Shown piece after piece: positions 2,330 to 18,283 of a stretch of DNA of 21,797 nucleotides. Positions within the stretch are counted from its first letter, which is position 1. Each line of letters opens with the position of its first letter. Origin of the DNA: a virus; IMG/VR virus record IMGVR_UViG_3300041402_001266, positions 1 through 21,797 of that record. One strand, given 5' to 3'. Made by a program: the position numbers and the translations under genes. Under the pieces are notes generated by a model. That model was not told the DNA's origin, made no database searches, and worked only from the letters and a program-made list of their open reading frames with translations.

Positions 2330-2521
2330 TTAGCTCCTGAAAATTATCAGTGGCACAAATCCATACCAACCGAATTCCAGATATGGAGAGTGGTCTTGGA
2401 TATCTTCCGTAATTTGCCATTGATATAATATCTTTGCACGGACGGAATTAAACCCAAAATCACCAACTCCGACATCCGATAAATCAGTGACTGGCTTGCT
2501 CAAATCAACTGAGGGCTTCAT
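2330..2521 (-). CDS. Small protein between gp47 and gp46
   Basis: A 63-residue ORF wedged between gp47 and gp46. Its ATG overlaps the end of the gp47 gene by 17 nt and has a good GGAG site 7 nt upstream. Its TAA is 1 nt before the gp46 start. T4 also carries small unnamed ORFs (46.1, 46.2) between genes 47 and 46, so the position is familiar, but I see no clear sequence match. The protein begins with a polar Ser/Asp/Val-rich segment and ends with an aromatic, hydrophobic stretch (YLEFGWYGFVPLIIF) that could pack against a partner or a membrane. The tight coupling suggests it is made together with the nuclease complex. Function unknown. Confidence 0.72.
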   Translation of the reverse strand: MKPSVDLSKPVTDLSDVGVGDFGFNSVRAKILYQWQITEDIQDHSPYLEFGWYGFVPLIIFRS

Positions 2522-3554
2522 TATAGGTCTCCTTCATCAATTTTATAACCCCGGCTTTGAGGTCGGCATCCAAATCGTCTTGGATTTCCATATACCCTTC
2601 AAATATTTCCATAAAATCCTCATTGTCAACGTCCCCATCATCCGGCGCATCCAATAAAAGACTTATATCAATGACATCACATTTTATAGCAGATTCCATC
2701 AATTTTGACAAAAGTTTTTCATCTTTTGCCTTCATTTTGTAATTGAGATAAACCTTTACATAACAATCGGCGGCGGATTCAACGTGCTTTTTAGTTATAG
2801 GCTTGTCCGCCGTCAAATATATTTTTTTGAATATCGATCGGGCCATTGGGACTTGTTTTAAGTCAAAATCGTCCAATCGCTGAGTTTGGGCTATTTTCTG
2901 TGCAAGCTCTAAAGTATAAGCAAACTTCTGGTCGCCGCAGTCGGCCCACGTGGTCTGATAAAACGACCCCAAATAAAAGATATTGCCCTTTTTCTGCACC
3001 AGATGAAAGTGACCGGAAAATACCCATTTAAATTTACGCAGGGTCGATGCATTCATCCCGCCAGTGCATTTGATACCATTGGTCATTTCAAAACCTTGCA
3101 GTTCGAAATGGCCGAAGCAATACTTCGCCTTAGAATTTTTTATTGCGGCCAGAGACTCATCCCAGTTCTCTTTGTTTATCCACGGCACAAAAAGGCACGG
3201 GACTCCATCAATTTCAATCTCCTCCGGTGCCTGAACAATTTTGATATGTTTATGCTTTTTAAATATCAGGTCCGGAGTGTTGACTTTGCTCGTATTTTTG
3301 AAAAGAGTATCGTGGTTCCCAATGAGCAAAAGCACTTTAATATCGCTGGCAATCTCATTTAAAACAATGTCCAGGATTTTAATCGATATAAAATTCCGGT
3401 TATCGAAAAAATCCCCCAATATAATCATCCGCCTGATATCGTTCTCTTTGCAATATCCTATAAATTTCTTCCACTCGGTTATTTGGTAATCGATAAATCG
3501 CTCATCGTTAATCCGCATTCCGAAGTGAAGGTCGCCAATTACAGCAACAGCCAT
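2505..3554 (-). CDS. gp47: gp47-like recombination endonuclease subunit (Mre11/SbcD family)
   Basis: Nuclease subunit of the gp46/gp47 complex. The 349 residues carry all metallophosphoesterase motifs of Mre11/SbcD: GDLHFG (D8, H10), GDFFDN (D48), GNHD (N80, H81, D82), GHFE (H149) and GHFH (H182, H184), which bind two metal ions. T4 gp47 is 339 residues, so this is full length. It ends with an acidic segment (residues about 300-335, Asp/Glu-rich). The gene lies directly after the kinase-like gene (gap of 4 nt) and overlaps the small ORF that precedes gp46, a classic 47-x-46 arrangement. The first ATG is used because the family begins just before the GDLH motif. Confidence 0.96.
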   Translation of the reverse strand: MAVAVIGDLHFGMRINDERFIDYQITEWKKFIGYCKENDIRRMIILGDFFDNRNFISIKILDIVLNEIASDIKVLLLIGNHDTLFKNTSKVNTPDLIFKKHKHIKIVQAPEEIEIDGVPCLFVPWINKENWDESLAAIKNSKAKYCFGHFELQGFEMTNGIKCTGGMNASTLRKFKWVFSGHFHLVQKKGNIFYLGSFYQTTWADCGDQKFAYTLELAQKIAQTQRLDDFDLKQVPMARSIFKKIYLTADKPITKKHVESAADCYVKVYLNYKMKAKDEKLLSKLMESAIKCDVIDISLLLDAPDDGDVDNEDFMEIFEGYMEIQDDLDADLKAGVIKLMKETYNEALS

Positions 3555-3558
3555 TTTG

Positions 3559-4014
3559 TTAATCTCCGAATTTTATTTGTTTTTCTGGTATATTCCCTGC
3601 ATCTAATGTGGCACTTTCCCACATTCCACGAATAACGGTCGGGAAACGGGGCTCATCAGGAAAATTTCGTTTTGCTCTCTGGATACAAACTTCCATTGAG
3701 GTATAAAAGTGGCGTAAATATATCTTTACATCACTCAGTTCTTTGGCAAACTTCTCCCATGACTTACGATATACTGGCCGGAGGTTAGTTGCATCAACCA
3801 CAACGGTATCATGACCGGCGTTAAATAATGATTCAACCATAAGCCGTTCAATTTCAGATACTCTTTTCTCCTCTTTAAAATACCGAATGGTGCCACCAAG
3901 AGTTTTTCGGATGGCATCCCGATTGACAATAGGATGTCCTGACTCCTTTGCCCATGTTGATTTGCCGGACTGTGGCAATCCAACCGTCAAAACCAATAAT
4001 TTTTTACATATCAT
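3559..4014 (-). CDS. Polynucleotide kinase-like P-loop kinase (kinase domain only)
   Basis: A 151-residue P-loop protein that resembles the N-terminal 5'-kinase half of T4 polynucleotide kinase (PseT/Pnk). Seen: Walker A GLPQSGKST at 12-20, a VNRD segment at 30-33 that matches the NRDD region of T4 Pnk where the catalytic Asp lies, VVVDATN at 71-77 corresponding to the second nucleotide-binding strand, and an R-x-W-x-x-F-A-K stretch shared with Pnk. The C-terminal HAD phosphatase domain of T4 Pnk is absent. Start: an upstream extension is open, but ATG at 4014 begins right before the kinase fold and overlaps the gp55 stop by 11 nt (ATGATATGTAA), typical of this genome. Likely role: 5' phosphorylation of nicked RNA or DNA; a nucleoside or other small-substrate kinase is possible. 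Confidence 0.85.
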   Translation of the reverse strand: MICKKLLVLTVGLPQSGKSTWAKESGHPIVNRDAIRKTLGGTIRYFKEEKRVSEIERLMVESLFNAGHDTVVVDATNLRPVYRKSWEKFAKELSDVKIYLRHFYTSMEVCIQRAKRNFPDEPRFPTVIRGMWESATLDAGNIPEKQIKFGD

Positions 4015-4420
4015 GTCTCTGCCCCACTTTAAATTGAATGCCATAACGGTGATATAATTGGGATATCTGTTCGTCCCGCAGTTTATCTTTAATGTTTTTC
4101 TGCTTTTTTTCTCCCGCCAAGGCATCCCAAAAATAGTGAATAATTACAGTCGTAAAATACCCGAATGGGTTTGTCCGTTCCGTGTCAAATTTATGGGCAA
4201 TAATACAACATTTAAGGTATGCATCGGAGACCATATCCTCAATCCAAGTATAGCCGGAAAAACGGCCTTTCGTGCCTATCTGTTCCGCCATTTCATAGAA
4301 TATCAGATGCAATCGCTCGCCTATTACGCCAGTCTTTTTTAGCTTTTTCAGCTCCGTTATCATTTCCTTATTGGTAACATAGTGCTTTCCCTTTGGATTT
4401 TTCTGCTTATTTTTAGACAT
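4004..4420 (-). CDS. gp55: gp55-like late transcription sigma factor
   Basis: Phage-encoded sigma factor that directs host RNA polymerase to late promoters. The 138 residues align by eye with T4 gp55: a KHYVTNKEM start (T4 YNYVNNKEL), a central FSGYTWIEDMVSDAYLKC segment (T4 FSGYTQSWKQEMIADGIE) corresponding to sigma region 2, then HKFDTERTNPFGYFTTVIIHYFWDAL (T4 [21 protein letters not shown]). It is shorter than T4 gp55 (185) and lacks most of the C-terminal part, although that part carries the clamp-binding tail in T4. Start: ATG at 4420 has AGGTGG 5 nt upstream; an in-frame GTG 9 nt earlier is less likely. It has its own TTGACA/TATAAT promoter. It probably reads the GGTAAATA promoters of the right arm (inference). 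Confidence 0.9.
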   Translation of the reverse strand: MSKNKQKNPKGKHYVTNKEMITELKKLKKTGVIGERLHLIFYEMAEQIGTKGRFSGYTWIEDMVSDAYLKCCIIAHKFDTERTNPFGYFTTVIIHYFWDALAGEKKQKNIKDKLRDEQISQLYHRYGIQFKVGQRHDM

Positions 4421-4442
4421 CTGCTCCACCTTTCTGTCATCT

Positions 4443-4472
4443 ATTATACCAAATAGGGGAGGGTTTTGTCAA
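4443..4472 (-). promoter_or_regulatory. Sigma70-type promoter upstream of gp55
   Basis: On the minus strand, a perfect -35 TTGACA (4472-4467) and a perfect -10 TATAAT (4448-4443) are separated by 18 nt. Transcription would start near 4436, leaving a leader of about 15 nt before the gp55 ATG with its AGGTGG site. This would be read by host polymerase and gives gp55, kinase, gp47 and gp46 a transcription start independent of the upstream block. Confidence 0.8.
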
Positions 4473-4489
4473 AACAAGCACAACATATG

Positions 4490-4615
4490 CTAATCGGCAG
4501 GAATTACCTTTTCTTTTTTGCGGTCATATTTGGATTTATCTTTGTGCCATTTGGTGGGTTTTGCGGTGGGAATGGCGAACGGAAGTTTCTGGCTCTCGGC
4601 CAGTTCTTTATTCAC
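4490..4615 (-). CDS. Small basic protein, GTG start
   Basis: A 41-residue ORF starting at a GTG whose 8 nt (GTGAATAA) overlap the end of the prepilin-like gene, and ending in TAG 18 nt before the gp55 -35 box. The protein reads MNKELAESQKLPFAIP followed by a Lys-rich segment with WHKDKSKYDRKKEK. The composition is compact and biased to Lys, and the coding overlap is typical for this genome, so I regard it as real although there is no strong ribosome binding site. Short proteins with a similar Ser-Gln-Lys-Leu-Pro-Phe-Ala-Ile-Pro start followed by a basic tail are familiar to me from other T4-type phages, but this is a recollection, not a search result. Function unknown. Confidence 0.6.
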   Translation of the reverse strand: MNKELAESQKLPFAIPTAKPTKWHKDKSKYDRKKEKVIPAD

Positions 4616-4859
4616 TATTATTTTCTTCTTCCGTTTCGACATCGGTTGCGGCATCCTCTTCAGATTTTTCTATACCGGCATATTTATATAAGCCATCCTT
4701 GCGGCTTTGAGCGGTCTGTTGCACGGCCTCAATTTTTTCCTTGGCATGTGTATCAAAACCAATATATCTCTTGGCAATAAAGGTGCCCAATACACCAATG
4801 ATTAATAGAACTGCAATCAGCTCAATTAACGTGAAGCCCTTTTTATTTAGACGTTTCAT
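4608..4859 (-). CDS. Type IV prepilin-like protein (N-methylation motif)
   Basis: An 83-residue protein that starts with a textbook class III (prepilin) signal: short basic leader MKRLNKKG, then F-T-L-I-E-L and a hydrophobic helix of about 20 residues (9-30). The predicted prepilin-peptidase cut is G8/F9 and the glutamate at position +5 of the mature protein (E13) is present. The rest (31-83) is a charged, helical, acidic tail ending EEENNSE. There is no room for the usual pilin beta-sheet domain, so it is a minimal pilin or pseudopilin. The ATG follows the upstream stop codon with no gap (TAAATG) and has no clear ribosome binding site, indicating translational coupling. It sits inside a phage early/middle operon. 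A possible role is to interfere with host type IV pili, competence or type II secretion; this is inference. Confidence 0.82.
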   Translation of the reverse strand: MKRLNKKGFTLIELIAVLLIIGVLGTFIAKRYIGFDTHAKEKIEAVQQTAQSRKDGLYKYAGIEKSEEDAATDVETEEENNSE

Positions 4860-5369
4860 TTAAAATAAGTCAGTCAATTTACCGGATACTTTAGCAGTCT
4901 CCATTGGTACATCCTCCGGCTCGACTTTTTCCTTTTTAGATTTATAAGCACGTTTTAACTTTGTTTCCAATATTTTATCGATGTCCATTGCTTCAATAAT
5001 CGGCTCGAGTTCTTTAATTGCCGAAAATGGAAATATAGTATCATCAATTAAAAAGGGTTTAAACGTGGCTATTATCCAATCAACAAGGCGGCGTGGTATT
5101 GCTCCCTGTGGGACACCCCTAATACCGGCCTCATCCCGTTTCATTTTCATATTAAAAATACAGGAATCGTTAACCTGTATTTTAGCATAATCATGGCCTT
5201 TGCCTTTTTTGATTTTGACGTTGTCCACATATCGGTGCGTAAAGCAAAGATATTTATATCCGTTAACGGTTTGAGTCGTCCGGCTGAAAATTAAATTACC
5301 GTAATCCTCTTCTTCATGCCGGAGTTCAATAAAAGGCAATCCAGATGTGCTATATTTTAGTTCGGACAT
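4860..5369 (-). CDS. Conserved-looking protein of unknown function
   Basis: A 169-residue protein. The start MSELKYSTS at 5369 is chosen because it lies 1 nt after the stop of the preceding zinc-ribbon gene and has an AAGG site 8 nt upstream; an upstream in-frame extension would overlap that gene. I see a mixed alpha/beta sequence with a GIRGVPQGAIPRRLVDWIIATFKPF segment in the middle, then a C-terminal Lys/Glu-rich tail (about 135-169) that looks disordered. No catalytic motif is recognisable. It is directly coupled to the prepilin-like gene downstream (stop TAA touching ATG). It belongs to the operon that starts at the promoter copy 6108-6194. Function unknown. Confidence 0.75.
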   Translation of the reverse strand: MSELKYSTSGLPFIELRHEEEDYGNLIFSRTTQTVNGYKYLCFTHRYVDNVKIKKGKGHDYAKIQVNDSCIFNMKMKRDEAGIRGVPQGAIPRRLVDWIIATFKPFLIDDTIFPFSAIKELEPIIEAMDIDKILETKLKRAYKSKKEKVEPEDVPMETAKVSGKLTDLF

Positions 5370-5370
5370 A

Positions 5371-5586
5371 TTAATACCTTGCACAAGACGGGCAACAATC
5401 CCCATCTTCTTCCATTATCGGTTCATATAATTTGCGGCAACCGGTGCACATTTTAACGGTCATATGAATCAGCTCCCGTTCACGTTCCTCATCAATCGGC
5501 TCACATCCACAAGGAGTATGGTCGTGGCATGAGGGGCAAATATGCATTTCTTCCATCATATCATGAACGTCATTATCTGTCATCAT
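5371..5586 (-). CDS. Small zinc-ribbon protein (CxxC pairs)
   Basis: A 71-residue acidic protein with cysteine pairs CPSC (18-21), CGC (27-29), CTGC (near 49-52) and CPSC (near 66-69), the pattern of one or two zinc ribbons. The start has AAGGAG followed by 8 nt and ATG, and the ATG overlaps the TGA of the upstream gene (ATGATG). No enzyme motif. Such tiny zinc proteins in phage early regions often bind host polymerase or other host proteins, but nothing here shows the partner. Confidence 0.78.
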   Translation of the reverse strand: MMTDNDVHDMMEEMHICPSCHDHTPCGCEPIDEERERELIHMTVKMCTGCRKLYEPIMEEDGDCCPSCARY

Positions 5587-5705
5587 TTTGATTTCTCCTT
5601 TTCTTTATCGGCACAAATCGGACACTGGCCGGTCTGCTTAAAGTCCCAAAATATACTTCCACATTTGCATTTGTGAATTTGCGGGTTTGATGTAATTTTT
5701 GGCAT
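5583..5705 (-). CDS. Tiny zinc-ribbon protein, 40 residues
   Basis: A 40-residue ORF: MPKITSNPQIHKCKCGS, then a loop and a CPIC pair, then a Lys/Glu-rich tail. The C-x-C and C-x-x-C pairs are about 15 residues apart and would bind one zinc ion. GGAG lies 8 nt before the ATG. The ATG overlaps the TAA of the upstream gene (TAATG) and its TGA overlaps the next ATG. The overlaps on both sides and the Cys spacing make it convincing despite its size. Confidence 0.75.
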   Translation of the reverse strand: MPKITSNPQIHKCKCGSIFWDFKQTGQCPICADKEKEKSK

Positions 5706-6097
5706 TATGAAATTCTCCCAAATACCTGTCCCCATCGAATAACTCCGTGCCAATCTGTTTTATCAACCGAATCAACTATGGCCTTTTCAATCGGGTCTAA
5801 AATTTTTCCCATCTCTCTGGCCAAAGAACATCTCCATTTCCCGTTCTCATCATATGCCGGAAGGTCAAAATCAGCGGTGCAAGGCATACATTGATGTGCC
5901 GGTTTCGGCGATACCAAAAAGCAGACCCATCTCCAAACGTATGCGGCCTTTCCCGTTATCGGGTCGTCCGTTACCTTTGGCTTACTTGCTCTGACCGTCC
6001 CATCCTTTTTTACTATGATATCAAGAATGGCCAGTCCTTCTTCATTACCGGCGAGTTTGTTTTTGGCGTTTTCGATGTTTACTTTAGGCATGTTCAT
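5705..6097 (-). CDS. Protein of unknown function, first gene after early promoter copy 1
   Basis: A 130-residue protein, the first gene downstream of the strong promoter at 6108-6194. AAGGAG lies about 10 nt before the ATG; a second ATG two codons later is also possible. Residues 1-55 read like a short alpha/beta segment, followed by a Trp-rich hydrophobic VWRWVCFLVSPKPAHQCMPCTADFDLP stretch with C-x-x-C (about 70-73) and two other Cys. The C-terminus has DKTDWHGVIRWGQVFGRIS. I recognise no family. Placement right behind the strongest type of promoter suggests high early expression. Confidence 0.72.
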   Translation of the reverse strand: MNMPKVNIENAKNKLAGNEEGLAILDIIVKKDGTVRASKPKVTDDPITGKAAYVWRWVCFLVSPKPAHQCMPCTADFDLPAYDENGKWRCSLAREMGKILDPIEKAIVDSVDKTDWHGVIRWGQVFGRIS

Positions 6098-6107
6098 AAT
6101 ATTTAGA

Positions 6108-6194
6108 TCTCCTTTTGTTGACCGTTTCTTTCCATTCTATAACTGTTATCGGCACTTGTCAACAAAACTTTAGCTTTTTCTCAAATTATTTTTA
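6108..6194 (-). promoter_or_regulatory. Early sigma70-type promoter, repeat copy 1
   Basis: Minus-strand promoter with perfect -35 TTGACA (6162-6157), 17-nt spacer and -10 TAGAAT (6139-6134). Upstream of the -35 is an A/T-rich tract with A-runs (6163-6194) like an UP element. The 87-bp block is identical to 8079-8165, including the leader and the ribosome-binding-site edge. It lies directly before the gene at 6097. Confidence 0.88.
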
Positions 6195-6201
6195 AATGGT
6201 T

Positions 6202-7181: not shown

Positions 7182-8071
7182 TAAATTTCCTTATTTAATA
7201 GCCTTGGAGATATTCTCCAATCAGTTCCGTCCGGCGTATTGGTAATCCGGCAGGTTTTCAAATTGACTCTTTTTACGATGCCGGTTATCTTGGTGGTTTT
7301 TCGTTTGCTGCTCCAAAACCAAACCTTGTCCCCGACCTGCACGTCCCCACCTGTTACCACGTGGCGTTTGGGCGGCGTAAAAAGCGGTTTGAATTTTTCA
7401 TCCGTTTCTCTGGCCTTTACCAACATATCCAAATATTTCCGATAGTCGGTTATTGCCCCTTTGCCATCAATATAACTATTGCCATCGGCTTCAACACAAA
7501 CCGATACCATCATCCCAAATTGTCCGGCCACAAAAGCCTTTTCAAATTCGGCCTTGACCGGATCTACCTTGGGCGGTGCCGGTGCATTCAGTGCGGCTAT
7601 TTTAAGTTCATCCCATCTCGGCTCGATATGCTCCATCCATAAATCATAAAGCATCTGCTGATATTTACCAAATGAGCGACCGTGGGCTTTGCGTTTGTAT
7701 TGAAAATATGGTGCATTAGCACGTTCGGATTCGGCTCTGGCGTCTCCATCGTTTATAACATGGGCGACCTCATGCAAAAAAGTCCATGCGGTATGGCGAT
7801 ATAATACCACTCGGCGTTTGGCAGTCCATGCGGTTCCCCATCGTTGGGTCGTCTGGCGATGTGAGAGTTCTACCGATATAATGTCCTCACCCATATCGTA
7901 TAAAAACTGCATAAAATCGGATACAACAGAATCGTCAATAATGTGATTTTGCAATCTGACCCGTTCCATTTCGGAAACCGGACAAGTGGAGTTTCCGGTG
8001 CCGGATCTTTTTGCTACTTTAAATCGGCTGTTGCTTAAGTAATTCGGCCTGTTATCAAAAATGGTTGTCAT
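7181..8071 (-). CDS. Putative zinc metallopeptidase with C-terminal KOW/SH3-like segment
   Basis: A 296-residue protein with a zinc-peptidase motif FLHEVAHVIND (H100, E101, H104) followed 26 residues later by AHGRSFGKYQQMLYDL (H130). The HExxH plus distal HG-x-x-F pattern resembles SprT-like and related phage metallopeptidases. A basic beta segment (about 66-92) precedes the active site, as in those proteins. A long insertion-like region (about 150-240) links to a C-terminal GDKVWFWSSKRKTTKITGIVKRV stretch (about 246-268) resembling a KOW/SH3-type beta barrel, possibly for nucleic-acid or protein binding. It is the first gene after promoter copy 2, so early and strong expression is likely. 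The target is unknown; a host-protein protease is plausible. The peptidase call rests on motif order, not on an alignment. Confidence 0.78.
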   Translation of the reverse strand: MTTIFDNRPNYLSNSRFKVAKRSGTGNSTCPVSEMERVRLQNHIIDDSVVSDFMQFLYDMGEDIISVELSHRQTTQRWGTAWTAKRRVVLYRHTAWTFLHEVAHVINDGDARAESERANAPYFQYKRKAHGRSFGKYQQMLYDLWMEHIEPRWDELKIAALNAPAPPKVDPVKAEFEKAFVAGQFGMMVSVCVEADGNSYIDGKGAITDYRKYLDMLVKARETDEKFKPLFTPPKRHVVTGGDVQVGDKVWFWSSKRKTTKITGIVKRVNLKTCRITNTPDGTDWRISPRLLNKEI

Positions 8072-8078
8072 ATTTATT

Positions 8079-8165
8079 TCTCCTTTTGTTGACCGTTTCT
8101 TTCCATTCTATAACTGTTATCGGCACTTGTCAACAAAACTTTAGCTTTTTCTCAAATTATTTTTA
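8079..8165 (-). promoter_or_regulatory. Early sigma70-type promoter, repeat copy 2
   Basis: Minus-strand TTGACA (8133-8128), 17-nt spacer and TAGAAT (8110-8105), with the same A-rich upstream tract and leader as copy 1 (87 identical positions by eye). It drives the metallopeptidase gene at 8071. Confidence 0.88.
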
Positions 8166-10589: not shown

Positions 10590-10650
10590 ACCGTTTCTTT
10601 CCATTCTATAACTGTTATCGGCCTTTGTCAACAAAACTTTAGCTTTTTCT
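10590..10650 (-). promoter_or_regulatory. Early sigma70-type promoter, repeat copy 3
   Basis: Minus-strand TTGACA (10631-10626), 17-nt spacer and TAGAAT (10608-10603). Sixty-one bases match copies 1 and 2 with two differences in the spacer. The upstream A-rich part lies inside the last codons of the RNase HI gene (10639 onward), so the promoter begins within a coding region. Confidence 0.87.
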
Positions 10651-11193
10651 TCGATTATTTTCCATTTCTTTTGCGATTTCTTCTGGCGTGTAATGCTTTG
10701 TTTTATATACGAATGTGCCACGTCCCGCCGCAACCTCATCCTTAGTTTTATAAGGTTTGATATATAAATATCCAGTGGGATTATTTTTCTCCCCGTTTTT
10801 CCTGGATTCCAAGGCTAATTTATCGGCCTGTTTATTACCATAACTTTCATCGTGGCCTTTGACCCATTCAAACGATAAATCTTTATATTGTTTCAGCAAC
10901 CTTTTAATTTTTTTGATTAATTTGGTATTTTTCTTCGGCTTCCAATATTTATTGGTTATGACCCCGATGCAATATTTCGAATCGGTGATTATTTTAATGC
11001 GGTGATTTTGATATTGTTTTAATTTCTGCAGGGCGACTTTGATAGCGGTGAGTTCGGCAATATTATTCGTTCCCATGCCGACATATTTGGAAAATTTAAT
11101 CTCTTTGCCTTTATATTTGACATAGATACCTATTCCCATATGTTTGGTTTGATGAGGACATGACCCATCCGTATAAACATAAATTATATTCAT
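10639..11193 (-). CDS. rnhA: Ribonuclease HI
   Basis: Degrades RNA in RNA-DNA hybrids, for instance to remove primers. All catalytic residues of RNase HI are visible: D9 in YTDGSC, E47 in NIAELTA, D71 in ITDSKY, H114 in VKGHDE and D124 in NKQADKLA. The core is about 130 residues; a further 50-residue basic tail (135-184) follows, ending YTPEEIAKEMENNRRKS. Start: ATG at 11193 has GGGAGAGG 6 nt upstream and begins right before the first strand; an in-frame ATG at 11217 would place 8 extra residues over this site. T4's own RNase H is of the unrelated FEN-1 type, so this is a different solution to the same task. It is the first gene of the leftward arm. Confidence 0.95.
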   Translation of the reverse strand: MNIIYVYTDGSCPHQTKHMGIGIYVKYKGKEIKFSKYVGMGTNNIAELTAIKVALQKLKQYQNHRIKIITDSKYCIGVITNKYWKPKKNTKLIKKIKRLLKQYKDLSFEWVKGHDESYGNKQADKLALESRKNGEKNNPTGYLYIKPYKTKDEVAAGRGTFVYKTKHYTPEEIAKEMENNRRKS

Positions 11194-13347: not shown

Positions 13348-14817
13348 ATGAAAATTAAATATTATAATGAGGCTTTCGTCTCGATTGATTGTGAATATGA
13401 TGAGGCGCAGGAATTAAGCGATGTTTTTTCGTTTTATTCTCCGAATCATCAATGGAGTCCGAAATATCAATCTGGCATATGGGATGGAAAAATACATTTA
13501 TTTGATATTAACAATTGCTTGTTGCCGTTTGGCTTATTAAAAAAATTAATAGGTTACCTGAAACTAAGCGATTATGAATATGAAATCGAACCACGGCTCC
13601 TTGAAATGGGCGGCAAAACATCATCAGATGAGATTCTGCAGTTTTGTAATGAGGTCCTGAAAGCCGACTTGGTGCCACGAGATTATCAAATAAAAACCAT
13701 ACAATACTTTTTATACCATCAGAAAATGATAGGCGTGTCGGCCACAGCATCCGGTAAATCGTTTATTTATTACATACTTTTTAATCTTTTGAGGTATTTA
13801 TACGATGATATAAAATGTCTTTTATTGGTTCCCCGGACGTCTCTGGTCGAGCAAATGTCCTCAGATTTCCAGGAGTATGCCAAAAATTTATGTGATTTTC
13901 GGAAATATAATCACCGGATTTATTCCGGCCGCGAGAAATATACTAATAAAATGATAACGATTTCGACTTGGCAATCGTTAAAAAATATGCCACCAGAGTA
14001 TTTTGAAAAATTTAACTGCGTGGTGGTCGATGAAGTGCATGAGGCAACCGCAAAGGAACTCCCGCGGATTGTGCATCATTGTATAAATGCCATTTATCGG
14101 GTCGGCATGACCGGTCATTTGAAAGACTGTAAAATTGCCAAGATGCAACTTAACGGGCTCTTGGGTAATATCAAAACATTTTCCAAGTCCGCCGAGCTGA
14201 TTGAAAAAGGATATTTATCCGATATCGAGATTAAATGCATTATTTTAAAATATGGACCGGATATAACCAAAAAGTTCATGGGCCGGCACCATAAAGAATA
14301 TGTGGAGGAGAATGAAATAATCCGAGCTATATCGTCACGGAAAAAGTTTCTGTGCCAGTTGGCGGCGTCACGTCCCGGAAATACGATGATATTATTTAAA
14401 ATACGTGATTATGGGCGGGATCTATATCGTTTAATCAAGCGCAATTTTAAGGATAAAAAGGTATTTTATATTGACGGCACGGTAAAGGTAAAATATCGTG
14501 AAAAGGTTCGTGCCGTTGCTGAGAAATATGATGATGTAATCATAGTCGCCAGTTATGGGACATTTTCGACTGGTATCAATATCAAAAATTTACATAATTT
14601 GATTTTCGGAGAATCAGTTTTGTCGAGTGTAAAGGTTATCCAGAGTATTGGGCGACTTTTAAGGAAATACTTTAACAAAAATGCCAAATTATATGACGTG
14701 ACCGATGATTTGACATACCGGAGCAGACGGAATTATGTATTGAAGCATTTTCTGCGCCGAATAAAATATTACGACCAGGAGCAGTTCGAATATGATGTAA
14801 CTAATAAAACCATTTAA
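13348..14817 (+). CDS. uvsW: UvsW-like recombination helicase
   Basis: Superfamily 2 helicase that branch-migrates recombination intermediates and unwinds R-loops, switching T4 replication from origin to recombination-dependent mode. In 489 residues (T4 UvsW about 500) I see: an N-terminal DNA-binding region (1-105), PRDYQ (110-114), Walker A SATASGKS (131-138), LLLVPRTSLVEQM (158-170), DEVH box (228-231), MTGHL motif III (254-258), an IIVASYGTFSTGINIKNLHNLIF segment nearly identical to T4 (IIVASYGVFSTGISVKNLHHVVL), and motif VI QSIGRLLRK (432-440). No strong ribosome site is seen before the ATG; coupling with the zinc-finger gene 5 nt upstream is likely. Confidence 0.96.
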   Translation: MKIKYYNEAFVSIDCEYDEAQELSDVFSFYSPNHQWSPKYQSGIWDGKIHLFDINNCLLPFGLLKKLIGYLKLSDYEYEIEPRLLEMGGKTSSDEILQFCNEVLKADLVPRDYQIKTIQYFLYHQKMIGVSATASGKSFIYYILFNLLRYLYDDIKCLLLVPRTSLVEQMSSDFQEYAKNLCDFRKYNHRIYSGREKYTNKMITISTWQSLKNMPPEYFEKFNCVVVDEVHEATAKELPRIVHHCINAIYRVGMTGHLKDCKIAKMQLNGLLGNIKTFSKSAELIEKGYLSDIEIKCIILKYGPDITKKFMGRHHKEYVEENEIIRAISSRKKFLCQLAASRPGNTMILFKIRDYGRDLYRLIKRNFKDKKVFYIDGTVKVKYREKVRAVAEKYDDVIIVASYGTFSTGINIKNLHNLIFGESVLSSVKVIQSIGRLLRKYFNKNAKLYDVTDDLTYRSRRNYVLKHFLRRIKYYDQEQFEYDVTNKTI

Positions 14818-15932: not shown

Positions 15933-16598
15933 ATGGCATTAGGGCAAAATGTATTTGAGCAAAAGCCGGGAACAGCCGGTACTTTTAAACGGACTAAGTT
16001 TGTCCGCGGGAAACGAAAATTCCCCAAGGATATCCAAGTCATGTTTGACCGGCTATATAAAGACGTTGAGATTCCCAAATTAAAGCCGTCAAAAATTACA
16101 CGGGCTCGATTTGGATTTCCAATGATGTTCAAATACTCGCCGAAATGGTCAAGCATTTTACCATATTATGATGTTTTACCGATGCCGATACTTTTGGCAA
16201 AATATGGTGATGGGTTTTTGGGATTGAATATACATTATCTGCCGTGGGCGAAGCGATTGCAGTTGGCGGATAGACTCGTGAGGTCAGCCAAAAATAAAAA
16301 GAGGATTACTTATCCTCAAATTAAACGTGCATGGGCGAGCTTGCGTTTGCCGATGGGTTATTCTTATTTGATAATCCGGCGTTATTTGAACAGCCATATC
16401 CAGTCGGATATTGCGGTATTCACGTGGGAAACCTATCGGGCCGCAGCGGTAAATATTCCCGGTAAGTGGCGGAAGAAATCTGAAAAGGCAGTATTCTCCG
16501 CAATGAGAGACAAATGGAAAGACCATGTTAAGAAAACCAAGGGTAAAAATAAAAAAGCAAAAGTCACACGAACGAAATCAACTAAAAGGAAACGATAA
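15933..16598 (+). CDS. Conserved T4-type virion/head-region protein (FLGLNIHYLP motif)
   Basis: A 221-residue very basic protein. The central part has SKITRARFGFPMMFKYSP, LPYYDVLPMPILL and GDGFLGLNIHYLP, a combination I remember from T4-type phage proteins of marine and cyanobacterial phages encoded near head genes; I cannot confirm the name given to them. Residues 190-221 are nearly all Lys/Arg/Thr, a likely DNA-contacting tail. Its TAA overlaps the portal ATG (TAATG). A virion protein that binds DNA or DNA ends is plausible, but unproven. Confidence 0.72.
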   Translation: MALGQNVFEQKPGTAGTFKRTKFVRGKRKFPKDIQVMFDRLYKDVEIPKLKPSKITRARFGFPMMFKYSPKWSSILPYYDVLPMPILLAKYGDGFLGLNIHYLPWAKRLQLADRLVRSAKNKKRITYPQIKRAWASLRLPMGYSYLIIRRYLNSHIQSDIAVFTWETYRAAAVNIPGKWRKKSEKAVFSAMRDKWKDHVKKTKGKNKKAKVTRTKSTKRKR

Positions 16599-18283
16599 TG
16601 ACTGTTTTCGGGCGATTAAAAAAATTATTTCCTAAAAGCGAAGATAAGTTTGAAGATGATGTGGAAGTAAAGGATGACGTTGTAATTCTAAAAAATACCG
16701 ATGAACCGGAGGCCGATGCTTTTGGCATAAGCCAATTATCATGGGGACTCGACTTCGAAATTCGGGCAAAATCCATATATGACCTGATTACAATGTATCG
16801 CCGGGCAACCATAAATTTTGAGGTTGACGATGCCATCGATGAAATTGTTAATGAGGCAATCATCAAAGAGACCGATGATGTGGTCGATATTGATTTGGAT
16901 AAAGTTGATTTATCCGATTCAATCAAGAAAAAAATCAAGACCGAGTTTGATGAAATCCTTAAATTATTGAATTTTAATAATGAAAGTGAATATTTATTTC
17001 GGAAATGGTATACAGACGGGAGATTGTATTTCCAAGATGTTGTCGATAATGAAAAGGAAGGCATCAAAAAGATACAATTGTTGTCCCCGTTTGATATTAT
17101 TCGCATCAAAATTGATAATAAACTTAAAGAATTCGCCGCCGAAAAGAAAATTGAATTAAAAGGCGAATATGCTTATGTTTACAAAATCAACCAGAGACGG
17201 TTGGATGGATGTGCTAATACAAAGAATTTATACCAATATAATTATAAAGAGGAGGAGAGTGGATACCTAATTTCGGATGCTTTGATAACGTTCGTCCCGT
17301 CCGGCCTAACAGATTATACGGGCCGCATATTTATCTCACCGTTACATAAATGTCTGAAACCTTTGAATCAGTTGCGACTTTTGGAAGATTCTGCAGTCAT
17401 ATATCGAATCACTCGTGCCCCGGAACGCCGGGTATTTTTTATCGATGTTGGCAAACTGCCAAAGAAAAAGGCGGATGCATATGTGCAAAAACTCATCCGC
17501 GGGTTTAAATCCAAGGTTTATTATGATGCCAATACCGGCCAATTATCGACCAAGAGAAACGTATTGTCTATGATTCAGGATTATTATCTCCCGACCAACA
17601 GTGACCAAAAAGGGACGAAAATTGAGACCCTTGAGGGCGGTCAGCAGTTGGGCGAGATAGATGATATCATATATTTTAAAAAGAAATTATACAAATCCCT
17701 CAAAGTGCCGGTTGAAAGAATTGACGATGATGAAAATCCATCCATCCAAATAGGGCGGTCTGGAGAAATGCCGCGCAAGGAATTGAAATTTGTAAAGTAT
17801 ATCAAAAACCTGCGGTATCGCTTTTCATTTTTATTCATGGATTTACTTGAAAAACAATTGGTTTATAAATCCACAATGAGTAAAAAAGACTGGATGAAAA
17901 TCCGCAATGATATCAAATTTTTGTGGCAGAACGATAGTTATTATGCCGAGTTAAAAGATACCGAAATCATGAAAGACCGGCTTGAGACCGCCACGGAGAT
18001 AGAAGAATTCATTGGCAAATACTTCAGTAATTTATATGTCCAGAAGGAAATTTTTAAAATGACGGACGATGATATAAAAGAGCAACAAGACCAGATTAAA
18101 AAGGAAGAGGATGCAGGTGAGATAGATCCAACTCCAGAGGATGAATTTGGGGATGGGTCGCCGGAACCGAAGGATGATAAAGACAAACAGCAACCGGAAC
18201 CTGAAGAGGAAGAGGAACCAGAAGAGGAACCAAAAGAAACACCTCCGAAAGAAAAAGAGAAACCTCCGAAAGAAAAAGAATAA
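16598..18283 (+). CDS. gp20: Portal protein gp20
   Basis: Forms the dodecameric portal vertex through which DNA is packaged and to which the tail attaches. The 561 residues (T4 524) align by eye throughout: [22 protein letters not shown], then [39 protein letters not shown], matching T4 [39 protein letters not shown]. Later VYYDANTG and LLEKQL regions and FIGKYFSN (T4 FIGKYISH) also match. The last 55 residues are an acidic Glu/Pro/Lys tail that T4 lacks, ending in a direct repeat PPKEKE. Start shares a base with the previous stop. Confidence 0.97.
   Translation: [561 protein letters not shown]
18242..18283 (+). repeat. 21-bp tandem repeat at the portal 3' end
   Basis: Two copies of a 21-bp unit beginning CCTCCGAAAGAAAAAGA (18242-18262 and 18263-18283). 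They encode PPKEKEK and PPKEKE-stop, so the duplication lengthened the acidic tail and includes the stop. Confidence 0.75.

Follow-up and report, generated by a model that had tools for sequence, protein, structure and literature searches.

The window, by which we mean the whole 21,797-nucleotide (nt) stretch of viral DNA analyzed here, represents part (21.8 kb) of the genome of a divergent T4-type phage and encodes a prepilin-like protein of 83 amino acids (aa) that, as modeled, keeps the entire α1 helix of a pilin and no globular head. The open reading frame (ORF) is a real phage gene, conserved and under purifying selection in a second phage. We propose, with a probability of roughly 45%, that its product is a headless prepilin that would be matured by the host prepilin peptidase and used as a subunit decoy, poisoning or capping pilus or secretion filaments. 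The features discussed below are collected in Table 1.

Table 1. Features of the window around the prepilin-like gene and T4-type marker genes
Feature	Position	Strand	Remarks
gp47 SbcD-like nuclease subunit	2505-3554	-	PF00149; tblastn to T4-type phages
gp55-like late sigma factor	4004-4429	-	PHROG 234 late sigma transcription factor, E 8e-22; immediately downstream of the prepilin unit
Perfect sigma-70 consensus TTGACA-18-TATAAT before gp55	4443-4472	-	Kept in L233 (6321-6350)
orf54, very basic, 54 aa	4490-4654	-	Kept in L233 (78%)
Headless prepilin-like protein gene	4608-4859	-	83 aa; PF07963 and TIGR02532 above curated cut-offs
Leader MKRLNKKG of the prepilin-like protein	4836-4859	-	
orf181	4860-5405	-	Start may be 5369 (MSELKY), as in L233; directly upstream of the prepilin gene
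orf71, small cysteine-rich protein	5371-5586	-	Prepilin transcription unit
orf56 (TTG start), small CxC...CxxC protein	5583-5753	-	Prepilin transcription unit
orf130	5705-6097	-	First gene past the promoter box; kept in L233 (69%)
Promoter box TTGACAAGTGCCGATAACAGTTATAGAAT (-35, 17 nt, -10)	6134-6162	-	Reads into orf130 through the prepilin gene
gp20-type portal protein	16598-18283	+	tblastn, <=41% identity, mainly cyanophage gp20

A class III signal and a complete α1 helix without a head

The prepilin-like ORF runs from an ATG start to a TAA stop and reads MKRLNKKG^FTLIELIAVLLIIGVLGTFIAKRYIGFDTHAKEKIEAVQQTAQSRKDGLYKYAGIEKSEEDAATDVETEEENNSE. It thus combines a short basic leader ending in G at -1 with the mature N terminus FTLIEL, in which F stands at +1 and E at +5, and with a hydrophobic run of about 21 residues, the hydropathy maximum lying over mature residues 1 to 21. 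An earlier note, made from the sequence alone, had described this as a complete class III signal and had named a missing match to the N-methylation family as a refutation. The claim stands, as the protein matched PF07963 with 30.3 bits (cut-off, 21.2; E value of 2.8e-7) and TIGR02532 with 31.0 bits (cut-off, 16.3). This was the only N_methyl match that the profile search gave in the record, and scanning the two strands for a simple motif revealed no second prepilin motif in the window. All scores against the equivalog models tried (GspG, GspH, ComGC, and PilA Myxo) fell below their cut-offs; the GspG and GspH models, at 27.3 of 88.9 bits and 24.1 of 80 bits, match approximately the first 40 residues.

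The AlphaFold2 (AF2) model, of moderate confidence (mean pLDDT of 64 to 69), consists of a single helix over residues 11 to 60, the length of the approximately 50-residue α1 spine, and contains neither β-strands nor a globular β-sheet head after it. The 22-residue tail, with 10 acidic residues and 1 basic residue, is predicted to be disordered, and the protein has no cysteines. Since the model gives one helix, no strands, and an acidic tail, the protein is, as modeled, a pilin α1 helix without a head, with all of the approximately 50 residues of α1 kept. The earlier note had judged the ORF too short for a normal pilin head, with which the model agrees, although α1 is nevertheless whole, and had counted a 20-residue hydrophobic helix, where we count about 21 residues for the hydrophobic run and 50 for the helix. 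Its term "minimal pseudopilin" is a fair description of the protein.

Conservation and purifying selection

When aligned relatives served as the query, a 36-kb viral contig (L233) emerged that has the same gene order as the window and approximately 78% DNA identity. Its prepilin orthologue (L233:5943-6185) encodes 80 aa, 81% identical over the aligned codons. Between the two genes we estimated approximately 1.1 to 2.2 synonymous and 0.11 nonsynonymous substitutions per site, corresponding to a Ka/Ks of 0.099 for the whole gene, which falls to 0.052 when the stretch shared with orf54 is left out. For the signal and transmembrane region, a Ka of 0.056 compares with a Ks of 2.7, and the Ka/Ks of 0.08 for residues 31 to 66 places selection beyond the signal as well. 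Mismatches in the first 66 codons were distributed 11/3/28 over codon positions 1/2/3. With neighboring values of 0.053 for gp55, 0.156 for gp47, and 0.192 for orf181, the constraint on the prepilin gene is comparable to that on the late sigma factor gene.

A more distant homologue (43% over 79 aa) was found on contig L150 in a gene neighborhood unrelated to that of the window; L150/L168 is a contractile-tailed phage with sheath, tube, sheath stabilizer, and baseplate hub genes. Both the L233 and L150 proteins also score above the PF07963 and TIGR02532 cut-offs. The earlier note had suggested that the gene be sought in related phages, and it is present there. The residues K-G-F-T-L-I-E are invariant in these orthologues, while the leaders differ (MKRLNKKG in the window, MNKG in L233, and MNRLKNNKG in L150), and the helix and tail are likewise conserved within this family. 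The pattern scan for wider relatives demanded E5 in advance, and therefore its conservation counts in the direct orthologues only. Because of the synteny and low Ka/Ks in L233 and the homologue in L150/L168, we conclude that this is an established, functional phage gene. A chance or noncoding ORF is ruled out by the profile scores together with the purifying selection against L233.

The bacterial matches of the window protein center on the signal and α1, that is, on its N-terminal half. GspH/GspG-type pseudopilins and MSHA-type pilins of deltaproteobacteria are approximately 40 to 50% identical to its residues 5 to 58; unlike the headless window protein, they carry a globular head, in frames nearly all longer than 120 aa. 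A scan of genome contigs and of 297 genomes of the deltaproteobacterial phylum gave weak N-terminal matches only, of at most 35 bits (the best value in the 297 genomes), which argues against a close bacterial donor. A link to pelagiphages, by way of a PulG-like gene with curli pores, was also dropped: the paper on phage Melnitz mentions curli and no pilin, and its genome has no N_methyl match.

Genomic context and likely timing of expression

Besides the T4-type core genes of Table 1, the window carries gp46 and uvsW, and the best-ranked matches of its core genes to known phages are approximately 41% identical. The left 7.3 kb of the window is shared, at 99.9% identity, with a 31-kb viral contig that extends further into genes for DNA polymerase, primase, helicase, and a RecA-like protein; a profile search found no further N_methyl gene on it. 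The prepilin unit is ordered orf130, orf56, orf71, orf181, prepilin gene, and orf54. As the earlier note had read from the TAAATG junction, the upstream ORF ends at 4860, and its stop codon runs directly into the prepilin ATG (TAA|ATG); the two genes overlap at this point in L233 (TAATG). At its 3′ end, the prepilin gene is overlapped by orf54 over 47 bases. The same note had placed the gene in a phage operon rather than in host contamination, and we concur, as the sequence comes from a virus record and a second phage has the operon in synteny; host contamination is thereby ruled out.

No PilA-C-like partner gene is recognizable beside the prepilin gene. The orf181 product had no match in Pfam, NCBIfam, or PHROGs; its C terminus reads ...GKLTDLF in the window and ...GTLTDLF in L233, and this short conserved hydrophobic end might bind the sliding clamp, as the tails of the T4 coactivator proteins do. 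On the other side of the unit, a polynucleotide-kinase-like P-loop protein (3559-4125, negative strand) is encoded between gp55 and gp47 and shares bases with the end of gp55; this interval is empty or holds another gene in the annotated T4-type phages examined.

Three copies of the 29-base promoter box TTGACAAGTGCCGATAACAGTTATAGAAT lie on the negative strand of the window, where 0.01 copies are expected by chance: upstream of orf130, at 8105-8133, and, with one mismatch, at 10603-10631. The box is present again on the overlapping contig and at the same place in L233 (4664-4692). The consensus promoter before gp55 marks the start of the next unit. Control by a late promoter was considered and not adopted: the late box TATAAATA at 4681-4688 of the window is absent from the L233 gene, and no late box is conserved inside the prepilin gene. 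Judged from these promoters, early or middle expression of the prepilin unit by host-type RNA polymerase is likely, and a conserved sigma-70-type promoter of its own without a conserved late box fits a host-takeover gene. The box forms part of a family of intergenic repeats of approximately 90 bases, all of them strong promoters of the sigma-70-like type that are preceded by a conserved A/T tract and followed by GGTCAACAAAA. These repeats lie at 6095-6196, 8070-8165, and 10590-10661 on the negative strand of the window and elsewhere at L110:172-251 and 2334-2425, at L111 around 830-916, and at L233:1207-1235, 4664-4692, and 14046-14074, and they mark early/middle units of this phage group.

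Short prepilin-like ORFs in other phages

Many of the matches listed in a scan of viral contigs with a DNA pattern for KGFTLIEL are ORFs of 28 to 140 aa. In 36 viral contigs selected from these matches, mainly for short ORFs, the T4 capsid protein Gp23 was encoded on 10, and all but two contigs contained exactly one N_methyl place, whereas three bacterial genomes held 14 to 16 such places each, all in frames of at least 125 aa. Cultured relatives were sought by homologue-based searches and HMM checks of whole records in a small panel. With the window protein itself as the query, a direct search of phage records returned nothing at E<=1 or E<=10, probably due to masking of the helix by the low-complexity filter; the L150 homologue worked better as a query. 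One N_methyl gene each was found in KVP40, nt-1, Aeh1, GomatiRiver_11, PhiW-14, X1, ACG-2014f, S-CAM7, G1, and Acibel004, phages whose hosts are Vibrio, Aeromonas, Delftia, Xanthomonas, Pseudomonas, Acinetobacter, and Synechococcus. No such gene turned up in any enterobacterial phage of the panel (hosts Escherichia, Shigella, Klebsiella, Enterobacter, Erwinia, Morganella, Serratia, and Salmonella) or, by HMM check, in the Acinetobacter phage Acj61, Melnitz, Marine virus AG-345-E02, and three cyanophages. Because the scan demanded E5 and the panel was small, this host pattern is a lead and not a result, and it is confounded by phage phylogeny. Among T4-type viral contigs, the 50 with the nearest gp47 carried no such gene, and therefore its advantage is not general; many of these contigs are fragments.

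The closest counterparts in kind are KVP40.0030 (66 aa, Vibrio phage KVP40) and its nt-1 equivalent, each, like the window gene, a single short ORF of a T4-type phage with a class III signal, E5, and one transmembrane helix. KVP40.0030 matches PF07963 with 36 bits, and its record notes a match to PF00114 (pilin); it differs from the window gene in adjoining td (thymidylate synthase) instead of gp55 and in an unrelated C-terminal part. Aeh1p044 (28 aa, Aeromonas phage Aeh1) and Aes012_095 are likewise T4-type phage ORFs that consist of or begin with a prepilin signal, the former annotated as "similar to N-terminal sequence of bacterial secretion protein pilin"; unlike the window protein, Aeh1p044 lacks most of α1 and Aes012_095 stays below the PF07963 cut-off (18.2 of 21.2 bits). 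Pilin-like annotations thus existed for KVP40.0030 and Aeh1p044, a point missing from the earlier note. The single N_methyl matches of PhiW-14 (gp119, 44 aa), X1 (WEM34242, 85 aa), G1 (orf026, 59 aa), Acibel004 (gp97, 107 aa), and ACG-2014f (gp249, 127 aa) are named hypothetical, "PilE-like" (Acibel004), or "pilin" (ACG-2014f) in the databases, and no similarity to the window protein was noted past signal and helix. The X1 protein, annotated as hypothetical, is encoded in a run of small genes of a T4-type phage (L013:4084-4341, negative strand, equal to Xanthomonas phage X1 12583-12840). A PilE-like ORF has also been noticed in the KVP40-like phage ValKK3 (PMC13142089).

Across these phage lineages the signal is constant while the tails differ completely. 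By its sequence, the window protein belongs with the KVP40.0030-kind ORFs, each the single N_methyl ORF of a tailed phage, with a small head or none, away from pilus operons. The kind has been glimpsed before (KVP40.0030, Aeh1p044, Acibel004, ACG-2014f, and ValKK3), and the window gene is a further example, not a one-off, because comparable short ORFs sit in cultured phages. Short prepilin-like ORFs are a recurring feature of phages, for the most part unnamed. A separate family of 63- to 75-aa prepilin-like phage proteins ends in ...PSKQSC...GGKW.EG....TQLCTYN or close variants (L119:6772+, L172:119+, L190:2490+, L185:7300-, L171:3010+, and L112:5587+). It occurs on viral contigs of up to 141 kb, of which L185 carries T4 Gp23, and no convincing cultured-phage counterpart was found. 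Two longer proteins of 122 to 135 aa (L144:9788- and L153:573+) share a (R)TGVV.KLS.KG motif in their tails and are perhaps prepilin signals fused to a small phage domain.

A candidate decoy and its alternatives

Class III signals are substrates of prepilin peptidases, and E5 matters more for filament assembly than for cleavage. In the proposed decoy mechanism, the protein would be produced early or midway in infection, its translation coupled to that of orf181, and would insert into the inner membrane, where the host prepilin peptidase would cut after KKG and methylate F1. Through its intact α1 and E5, the matured protein would enter a host type IV filament machinery, which could be a type IV pilus, a type II secretion system, or a competence pseudopilus. 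Because it carries no globular head and only a short acidic periplasmic tail, a normal fiber would be impossible, and the subunit would stall, cap, or titrate the platform and initiation complex. The phage would likely benefit in that infected cells no longer have functional pili or secretion, for example, through superinfection exclusion against pilus-using phages. The earlier note had also proposed that a fiber is poisoned, and we infer the same. Small phage proteins with such effects have precedents in PfsE of the Pseudomonas filamentous phage Pf4, a tiny inner-membrane protein that blocks pili by binding PilC, and in Tip (D3112) and Aqs1 (DMS3), which bind PilB and shut down type IV pili (PMC8764522). 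These are functional analogues only, and no prepilin signal is described for them (PMC8764522). For a phage pilin or pseudopilin, we found no published functional test in the searchable literature.

The protein could instead act as a substrate decoy for the prepilin peptidase, or as a plain class III anchor for an acidic periplasmic tail, in either case without filament interaction. Aeh1p044 (28 aa) and PhiW-14 gp119 (44 aa) contain little beyond the signal and transmembrane helix, and the lineage-specific tails behind a constant signal point the same way; other phages may thus use only these two elements. However, a pure peptidase decoy needs neither the helix nor the tail that the window family conserves, and E5, dispensable for cleavage, is retained in the orthologues, which points to a pilin or platform interaction rather than a mere anchor. 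The conservation of E5 and the C-terminal half of α1 appears to favor filament or platform interaction, and we consider action on the peptidase or simple anchoring rather unlikely. Interaction of this kind could also be productive, with a working pseudopilin- or minor-pilin-like subunit joining host type IV filaments and changing or promoting them as a PilA-N-like scaffold, cap, or initiator. The complete α1, the selection on residues 31 to 66 (Ka/Ks, 0.08), and the longer ACG-2014f and Acibel004 proteins (107 to 127 aa) are consistent with this. So is the solved structure that matched best, Geobacter PilA-N (geopilin domain 1; 9egp, E 6e-5; MshA also matched), which, like the window protein, is nearly headless and consists of a class III signal, α1, and a short tail. 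PilA-N is a cellular subunit that, paired with PilA-C, makes a genuine fiber, and therefore a missing head alone does not make a poison. Unlike PilA-N, the window protein has no such partner visible beside its gene; it also lacks a head and cysteines and is the single N_methyl protein of its record, and some phage versions, at 28 to 44 aa, are too short for a full α1. A working subunit is accordingly improbable in our estimation.

Two further explanations fare much worse. A small lysis or membrane-depolarizing protein, pinholin or spanin-like, in which the prepilin likeness is incidental, would agree with the single transmembrane segment and with weak PHROGs matches to Rz-like spanins (phrog_89 and phrog_1152, E of approximately 0.02). 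The N_methyl models score far better, though, the buried glutamate at +5 and the exact K-G/F junction are conserved in the orthologues, and the gene is not beside an endolysin, for which the match lies in another unit of the overlapping contig; we hold a lysis function to be very unlikely. Hardly credible at all is a recently captured, decaying, and functionless host pilin fragment, despite the missing head and the resemblance of the N-terminal half to deltaproteobacterial pilins and pseudopilins, given the Ka/Ks of 0.05 to 0.10 between two diverged phages, the 43% full-length homology to a third, and a best bacterial match of merely 35 bits in the 297 genomes.

Extended to other carriers, the decoy proposal would mean that headless prepilins have been taken up several times, and independently, by large lytic phages as subunit mimics that inhibit type IV filaments through dominant-negative incorporation, a general anti-pilus and anti-secretion strategy that does not involve motor binding and lies hidden under the name "hypothetical protein." We regard this generalization as doubtful, and the dominant-negative mechanism would be new, if proven. 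Should the proteins act only on the peptidase or as anchors instead, they nevertheless show that use of the class III pathway has been selected for. If the decoy proposal is true, phages would own a simple and portable means of disabling pili, competence, and type II secretion independently of the motor ATPase, natural headless prepilins would be ready-made probes of how pilins are admitted to the assembly platform, and the recurrent "hypothetical" genes of KVP40, nt-1, Aeh1, and PhiW-14 would gain a testable function.
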